From a virus: a stretch of DNA of 37,224 nucleotides. Below are positions 1,541 through 4,834 of the stretch, piece after piece. A program made the translations under genes and the position numbers. How positions within the stretch are numbered: position 1 is the first letter of the stretch; each line of letters starts with the position of its first letter. The stretch lies in IMG/VR virus record IMGVR_UViG_3300044684_000101, positions 1 through 37,224 of that record, one strand, 5' to 3'. The notes under the pieces were generated by a model, which searched no databases, was not told the origin of the DNA, and saw only the letters and a program-made list of their open reading frames with translations.

Positions 1541-2155
1541 TCACTCCCACGATTCGATTACGAATTTCCCGAAGACGCCGCGGAAGGTGCCGAGGCCGAT
1601 CGCCAGGCCGCCTTCCTCGATCAAATTGCGGATCTCCTGCTCCTTGATCTCTTTGTTCGGGTAGATGTCCAGCGTGAATTCCAGCGACCACGGCAGCGGC
1701 AGGACAGGGCGTTCCTTCGGGTTCGGGATGCCCTTGTCGAGGCGCGCCACGGATCGATGCAGATAAATCCGGCTCAGCGGGTCGTATTCCTCGCCGAACG
1801 CTCCGACGCGGATAGGCGTGCCGTCACGCAGAATCGGCAGGTACCCCGGATTCGCCGCAGGACCAGTAATGCTTGTGAAGCTCAGGCACGCGTTAGCGAT
1901 GTCCTTGTATGCCCGCTTGTCCCGAAGCCTCTTCGGCGCGCTGTTCGTGTTGTGTGCCGTGAGAAACGACACAATATTGGTGGCTGGCAGACACAAAATG
2001 TCCGATCCAGGTATCAGGTAGATCTTCTGGTGCCACTCCAGCTTCGTCTTGTTGTCGCCCGCGTACCGATCGAACATCAGTTCCCGCAGACCCTTCAGGA
2101 CCACGCGCCTCGTCACCTTCTCCAGCCGCGTGTCCGATTTGCTCAGTGTGCTCAT
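1541..2155 (-). CDS. Conserved-looking phage protein of unknown function, 204 aa
   Basis: Two starts are possible: 2161 has GAGGA only one base away, while 2155 (MSTLSKSDTR) has it six bases away, so I prefer 2155. The N-terminus is basic and helical. The C-terminus, EGGLAIGLGTFRGVFGKF, looks like the end of a set of phage proteins of unknown function found near recombination genes (recollection, not searched). A non-coding gap of about 200 bases with an unusual repeat precedes it, so its translation may be separately controlled. I cannot assign a role. Confidence 0.7.
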   Translation of the reverse strand: MSTLSKSDTRLEKVTRRVVLKGLRELMFDRYAGDNKTKLEWHQKIYLIPGSDILCLPATNIVSFLTAHNTNSAPKRLRDKRAYKDIANACLSFTSITGPAANPGYLPILRDGTPIRVGAFGEEYDPLSRIYLHRSVARLDKGIPNPKERPVLPLPWSLEFTLDIYPNKEIKEQEIRNLIEEGGLAIGLGTFRGVFGKFVIESWE

Positions 2156-2174: not shown

Positions 2175-2249
2175 AGCCCTCGCCTTGCCTATCCTCGCCA
2201 GGCCCGGCCCAGCCTCTCCAGGCCCGTCCCGGCCGCGCCTCTCCTTGCC
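2175..2249 (-). repeat. Array of 15 phased pentamers, GGNNN on the minus strand
   Basis: Read on the minus strand (the transcribed strand of this operon), 15 consecutive five-base units all begin with GG. Ten of them have C and four have A in the third place: GGCAA, GGAGA, GGCGC, GGCCG, GGACG, GGCCT and so on to GGGCT. The phase is never broken over 75 bases, then stops abruptly on both sides. It lies in the only sizeable non-coding gap of the left operon, between the 114-aa gene and the 204-aa gene. The function is unknown. Confidence 0.85.
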
Positions 2250-2301
2250 ATGCAGTGGAGAAACTGGCGCATCCTCAATTCATTGCATCAGCATCAGGGG
2301 T

Positions 2302-2329
2302 AAAAAGTCGGGCGCTGTACGAGCCGCCC
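2302..2329 (-). terminator. Possible terminator or attenuator in the left operon
   Basis: On the minus strand GGGCG (2329-2325) can pair with CGCCC (2314-2310) around a loop of ten bases, followed by GAC and five Ts. The stem is short and the T tract starts three bases late, so it is an imperfect terminator. It stands just upstream of the pentamer array, so that array might be read only by transcripts that pass this point. Confidence 0.35.
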
Positions 2330-4320: not shown

Positions 4321-4475
4321 ACCGACCTCGCAATAACGTCCCCGAACTGCACCGTCAAACAGACCACGATCAGCACACATGCGATCGCAGCCAATCCTTG
4401 ATGAACTCGCCGGCAGGCGTGCAACAGTTCGTTGTCGTCCACCGGTCTTAGGCTGTTGAGAGGGGCGCGCATCAT
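4317..4475 (-). CDS. Small single-span membrane protein, 52 aa
   Basis: An ATG-ATG start at 4475/4472 overlaps the stop of the Lar-like gene; GGAGG fits the second ATG better (four bases). The last codons overlap the next start (TATGA). The peptide has a basic region with HACRRVHQ and then a hydrophobic span, LAAIACVLIVVCLTV (about residues 28-42). It is probably inserted in the inner membrane; its role is unknown. The coupling at both ends supports it. Confidence 0.65.
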   Translation of the reverse strand: MMRAPLNSLRPVDDNELLHACRRVHQGLAAIACVLIVVCLTVQFGDVIARSV

Positions 4476-4834
4476 GCCTCCGCGCTGTCACGTTGTGCGA
4501 CGGCGCGGTCGATGAAGCTGTCCGCGTGTTCGCCAGTCAGGCTCAACGAACCAGAGCCGCGCATGGAACCGACAATGCGAATCCATTCGTCACCGTTGTT
4601 GATGCCGGCCCGCAGTTCGCGATAGCGCGCGGCATCCGTCACGTCCGTACCGGGCTGGCGGAAGTTCCACGACTTCGCCGCGTCGGTTTCTTCGCAGTGG
4701 AAAATGATCTGCTCGATGCAACCGATCGAACAGCGCACCTTGACGATGCGCTTGCCGTTATCCATTGCGCCGCCGTATTCGAACTGCGCGCGAGCACCAC
4801 ATATCGGACATGGCATGAGTTTGAGATCGCTCAT
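4472..4834 (-). CDS. Lar-like zinc-ribbon protein, 120 aa
   Basis: The N-terminus, LMPCPICGARAQFEY, with a second pair of cysteines in VRCSIGCIEQ, matches the layout of the Lar family (restriction alleviation protein), in which a small zinc ribbon is followed by variable sequence. Lar of Rac modulates host EcoK restriction; whether this relative does so is unknown. The C-terminal half (from about residue 62, TDVTDAARYRELRAG) is a separate segment common in phage early proteins. GGAGGT lies six bases before the ATG, and both ends overlap neighbours (ATGA). Confidence 0.72.
   Translation of the reverse strand: MSDLKLMPCPICGARAQFEYGGAMDNGKRIVKVRCSIGCIEQIIFHCEETDAAKSWNFRQPGTDVTDAARYRELRAGINNGDEWIRIVGSMRGSGSLSLTGEHADSFIDRAVAQRDSAEA

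Follow-up and report, generated by a model that had tools for sequence, protein, structure and literature searches.

A phased array of GGNNN pentamers and the adjoining RAMP-like gene, a very probable divergent single-array VIPR system in a virus genome

The window, by which we mean the whole 37,224-nucleotide stretch of viral DNA that was analysed, is phage-encoded, being a virus record with Erf, Gp157 and a repressor. The carrier is a temperate phage, probably of Burkholderiales, and DNA and protein BLAST searches against named phages returned no close relative. The left operon contains an array of five-base units, with the genes for Erf and Gp157 at 0.4-1.6 kb on its upstream side. A gene of 114 aa ends at 2353, and approximately 100 nt separate it from the array, in agreement with the sequence-only reading, which had placed the array about 100 bases past this gene cluster. 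The array is followed by a gene for a protein of 204 aa, called vipr here for the homology described below. The features of the locus are as follows.

2302..2329, minus strand: terminator-like hairpin GGGCGGCTCGTACAGCGCCC followed by T5, between the upstream 114-aa gene and the array; in the near relative L130 the stem is unchanged and the loop differs.
2250..2254, minus strand: TGCAT, a weak candidate for an imperfect 5' unit; the preceding unit in the family has C at its third position in 78%, and L130 has CGCAC.
2175..2249, minus strand: GG[C/A]NN array of 15 units, a vrRNA-type guide region according to the phase count, the family arrays and the consensus in PMC13142463.
2190..2249, minus strand: units 1-12, the presumed variable guide (NN pairs AA GA GC CG CG CT GA TG CG CT GA TA), from the NN variability in 130 family arrays and the 1-nt-skip reading of PMC13142463.
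2175..2189, minus strand: units 13-15 (GGCAA GGCGA GGGCT), a near-constant 3' end (handle), from the A-rich terminal NN of the family and the LESphi2 arrays, which end GGCRA GGGCT.
1541..2155, minus strand: vipr, 204 aa (206 aa from ATG 2161), a predicted single-domain RAMP with the G-loop GGLAIGLGTFRGVFGKF, from homology, profiles and a structural model.

The fifteen phased GGNNN units were read directly from the window sequence at 2249-2175 on the minus strand (5' to 3': GGCAA GGAGA GGCGC GGCCG GGACG GGCCT GGAGA GGCTG GGCCG GGCCT GGCGA GGATA GGCAA GGCGA GGGCT), and the earlier count, with a third base that is mainly C or A, proved exact. GG is present in 15/15 units, the third base is C in ten, A in four and G in one, and the two remaining positions show 7 distinct NN pairs. 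The longest run of GG at period 5 in the rest of the 37 kb has 4 units. When every dinucleotide is counted at each period from 2 to 12, the runner-up, sub-periods of the array aside, is a run of 7 (GC, period 12). With a GG frequency of 0.064 on the minus strand, the naive chance of such an array is about 1e-18 per position.

The distance from the array to the most likely vipr start, ATG 2155, is 19 nt. An alternative in-frame codon, ATG 2161, sits directly on the Shine-Dalgarno-like GAGGA, making ATG 2155 the likelier start. No stable fold that would make a structured 3' tail was found between array and start codon (fold z +1.3), and the RNA of array and leader together folds no better than shuffles. 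The hairpin at 2302..2329 was absent from the output of a consensus scan, no sigma-70-like promoter was found, and an Rfam search of the window gave zero matches.

Neither Pfam nor NCBIfam assigned a family to the 204-aa protein. A profile built from 49 sequences of its family and compared with all PDB sequences found a sole match, the entry 36pp 'SUSP1 Vipr protein' (E 1.7e-4). BLASTP of the 204-aa protein against SUSP1 Vipr gave an E of 1e-7 in the C-terminal G-loop region, and hhalign of the family profile against six SUSP1-type Viprs gave 95.4% with an E of 1.7e-8 over 137 columns. In the family the glycines G185, G189, G191 and G198 of the glycine-rich loop are invariant. The AlphaFold2 model (pLDDT 85) retrieved Csm/Cmr/Cas7-type RAMPs throughout the Foldseek list, and its best VIA-align match was a Csm3/Cas7 RAMP (Z 11.7, 4.2 Å over 167 residues). 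Judged from the model, the protein has a predicted RAMP fold with an RRM core, and sequence comparison identifies it as a Vipr homologue. Its relatives comprise 68 in viral contigs and five in genome contigs, and two of the latter belong to named Burkholderiales, Paraburkholderia phenoliruptrix (81%) and Candidimonas nitroreducens (69%). Vipr homologues flanked by GGYNN arrays are also present, annotated as 'hypothetical protein', in LESphi2 (L271, Pseudomonas aeruginosa), LittleE (L272, Mycobacterium) and Trine (L273, Gordonia).

VIPR, a means of phage-versus-phage gene silencing, was introduced by the Doudna laboratory in a preprint of 2026 (PMC13142463). In that work vrRNAs of 9-16 GGY/NN pentamers are bound by Vipr, a small RAMP protein, and guide it to double-stranded DNA, where the NN pairs are read and one target base is skipped per unit (PMC13142463). 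Experiments on other members demonstrated RNP formation, the 1-nt-skip code and repression of competing phages, and VIPR is presented as a form of RNA-guided DNA recognition that predates CRISPR and whose code is non-contiguous (PMC13142463). Further VIPR traits are a thumb domain in the protein, a conserved tail behind the repeats and a vap accessory gene.

In order to examine the relation between array and gene from the protein side, arrays of at least 8 units within 2.5 kb were surveyed in the loci of 65 relatives, with Markov-shuffled loci as controls. An array on the same strand was found within 2.5 kb in 53/65 relatives. These loci hold 137 arrays in total, 132 of which are on the vipr strand and 127 close before or after vipr; many relatives carry full arrays on both sides of it. 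The suggestion that the 204-aa product is the partner of the array thus gains strong support from linkage as well as homology. Zero arrays were found in the shuffled loci, and periods 3, 4, 6, 7, 8 and 9 gave 2, 0, 6, 0, 0 and 1 arrays of at least 8 units versus 137 at period 5.

The same association appears from the array side. When viral contigs were scanned blindly for twelve GGs spaced five bases apart, at least 120 loci were returned; among the matches listed most are intergenic GGY+NN arrays, and many of these end directly ahead of a ribosome-binding site or hairpin. With simple repeats removed, vrRNA-like arrays (mostly a pyrimidine third base and varied NN) are found in 102 of the 120 loci listed, and an iterated profile, which also recovers SUSP1 Vipr, detects a Vipr homologue in 75 of these 102. 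All the arrays concerned in the listed loci (143/143) lie on the strand of the Vipr homologue, at a median distance of 178 nt, and no Vipr homologue was detected in 59 control viral loci (best E 0.23). Similar runs do occur in other temperate phages, as the sequence-only reading had tentatively suggested and as the scan and the LESphi2 arrays indicate. A further 27 listed loci have vrRNA-like arrays and no recognisable Vipr in the stretch analysed (L009, L010, L014, L019, L024, L039, L044, L047, L077 and others). In these loci Vipr may have diverged, the contig may have ended too early, or the guides may be orphans such as the preprint reports in satellites (PMC13142463).

Comparison with the family arrays shows how the window array may be divided. 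In 130 distinct arrays the NN pairs are variable until the last 3-4 units and then become A-rich and near constant, which leaves twelve guide units in the window array; its near-constant last three units may replace a conserved 3' tail. The third base in relatives' arrays is C in 92%, T in 4% and A in 3%, and the window has 5/15 non-pyrimidine third bases versus approximately 4% in the family. Relative to L130 there are 3 differences in the 75 array bases, all at unit positions 3-4 and none hitting a GG, while 10% of the bases of the vipr gene differ (90% identical). The scaffold seems to be still under selection, since all 15 units hold the GG phase without a fault although the flanks and the vipr codons drift. 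Among the family arrays of L130-L203, GG is broken in 98 of 2540 units with the five-base phase kept, and nearly always one G alone is altered (TG, AG, GA, GT, CG, GC), hinting that single scaffold mismatches are tolerated. Some arrays in the same loci reach 40-89 units, compared with 9-16 in the preprint, and are probably overlapping or fused guides.

Among the closest known systems is that of SUSP1, an Escherichia phage with a type II VIPR (Vipr ALH47069.1, 36pp). As in the window, a phased array of GG-headed pentamers (GGY/NN in SUSP1) stands next to the gene for a small RAMP protein and shares its strand, and the two proteins are homologous, with a C-terminal G-loop in both. The SUSP1 system comprises four vrRNAs, a tail structured as a pseudoknot, and vap1 (PMC13142463). 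The window differs in that its one array occupies the vipr leader, 4 of the units are GGA, a tail is not visible and an accessory gene does not recur; no neighbour of vipr is common to most relatives. The Pseudomonas phage LESphi2 (OQ594955) has a VIPR-like locus containing arrays with the same ending as the window's and a Vipr homologue 38% identical to that of SUSP1, but it carries three arrays, each with further sequence ahead of vipr, and an adjacent second gene. Since systems with a single vrRNA and variants of the consensus are already mentioned in the preprint (PMC13142463), the window holds a divergent VIPR member and not a new kind of system, the kind itself being already known from that work.

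Two other comparisons are more distant. The Csm3/Cas7 subunits of type III CRISPR effectors oligomerise along guide RNA, and they share their fold with the 204-aa protein at approximately 8-18% identity. CRISPR-Cas itself was rejected, as there are no long repeats with unique spacers and no cas family among the ten neighbouring proteins scanned; the pentamer array is the only array of the locus. TRAP is a multimer that reads NAGNN repeats in a five-base RNA register. The analogy drawn with it earlier fails as a mechanism: the units here are GG(C/A)NN, so that the array is not a TRAP target, the fold is unrelated and TRAP has no targeting code.

Homology, fold and linkage together identify the array and the following gene as a VIPR system. 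We consider it very likely that the array supplies the guide portion of a vrRNA and that the next gene encodes its Vipr, the two making up a small, single-array system in the early left operon. Weighing against this reading are the non-pyrimidine third bases, the lack of a structured tail, of a sigma-70-like promoter and of a recurrent accessory gene in the searches made, the target searches described below, and the preprint status of the VIPR work. By analogy with the members studied in the preprint, this copy would be expressed and active. The guide RNA would be transcribed from the minus strand together with the vipr leader, and Vipr subunits, as Cas7/Csm3-like RAMPs, would line up on it, one per pentamer. 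Each subunit would grip the GG and expose the two variable bases, and the exposed pairs would jointly recognise DNA in the pattern NNxNNxNN..., each unit leaving one base unread. Binding to the DNA would then keep a gene of a rival phage or prophage from being transcribed. The proposal of a binding platform for a multimeric protein holds in part: the array is non-coding and, on sequence grounds, most likely an RNA bound by an oligomerising protein, but it is best read as a programmable guide, with GG as scaffold and NN as code, rather than a passive platform.

Under the published 1-nt-skip rule the window guide reads AAxGAxGCxCGxCGxCTxGAxTGxCGxCTxGAxTA. Searches of viral contigs with 8-unit cores gave 31, 17 and 11 matches, which is chance level, and no convincing target. 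The best viral match, 22/24 to the L130 version of the guide, lies in an unrelated AT-rich virus (L244, 1405-1440) and is not at wobble positions; we judge it to be probably due to chance. From its translation, the gene at this site resembles what we take to be a UDP-glucose dehydrogenase. In 398 Burkholderiaceae genomes there were 2 hits at 3 mismatches versus 4 in reversed-pattern controls, the window contains no self-target, and no target was found for the guides of the Paraburkholderia phenoliruptrix and Candidimonas nitroreducens prophages. When the skip rule was tested among the 2.2 Mb of collected loci, a database too small for the purpose, no skip length stood out. With one genome per species, a thin sample for fast-changing prophage targets, the target null says little either way.

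The alternative that survives best is a vrRNA that has degenerated or been retired and persists mainly as part of the vipr leader, with Vipr binding shutting off its own translation and no foreign target involved. The position of the only array, 19 nt ahead of the start codon, would suit such autoregulation, as would the non-pyrimidine third bases, the missing tail and the target null, and in several close relatives (L132-L137) the array immediately preceding vipr contains broken units. We nevertheless regard it as distinctly unlikely, in view of the perfect GG phase maintained over 15 units amid drifting flanking bases and vipr codons, and of the full arrays that stand before and after vipr in many relatives. 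Within the preferred reading, a guide read by Vipr, we raise only tentatively, as a possible but improbable variant, a tail-less, leader-embedded VIPR with relaxed GGM/NN units, in which vipr could not be translated while its product is loaded on the guide, nor the guide be loaded during translation, so that the guide would double as the protein's own off-switch.

The sequence-only reading had also proposed Erf as the partner and suggested looking for co-occurrence of phased arrays with Erf/Gp157 modules. A platform for Erf or another recombination protein would be in keeping with the Erf and Gp157 genes upstream, and YqaJ (17/71 loci), Erf and SSB families are frequent neighbours of the relatives. 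However, homologues of the window's own Erf or Gp157 are near only 3/73 Vipr relatives and the arrays track vipr, so that linkage largely refutes this idea, to which we give very little credence. The array goes with vipr and not with the recombination genes, and an early operon is common to both. As to other neighbours, a Lar-like restriction alleviation protein below the Pfam cut-off is encoded in the window at 4472-4834 (minus strand), and in L132 (6563-7795) and L133 a gene for a C5 cytosine DNA methylase lies behind vipr or overlaps it; ORFs related to this gene occur in 8 loci.

A simple-sequence or slippage repeat, a G-quadruplex or a composition artefact without a partner is equally remote: some scan matches are simple repeats and 16/120 listed loci lack both a vrRNA-like array and Vipr, but diverse NN pairs with fixed GG, the linkage to strand and gene and the lack of an equivalent at other periods contradict it.

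vrRNA-like arrays look common in viral contigs, with at least 120 loci from the pattern scan and, among those listed, 75 that combine an array with a recognisable Vipr. The lineage of the window, with its 68 viral-contig relatives, is a distant relation of the SUSP1 type that was tested, and its minimal layout of one guide and one protein suits testing how little VIPR needs.
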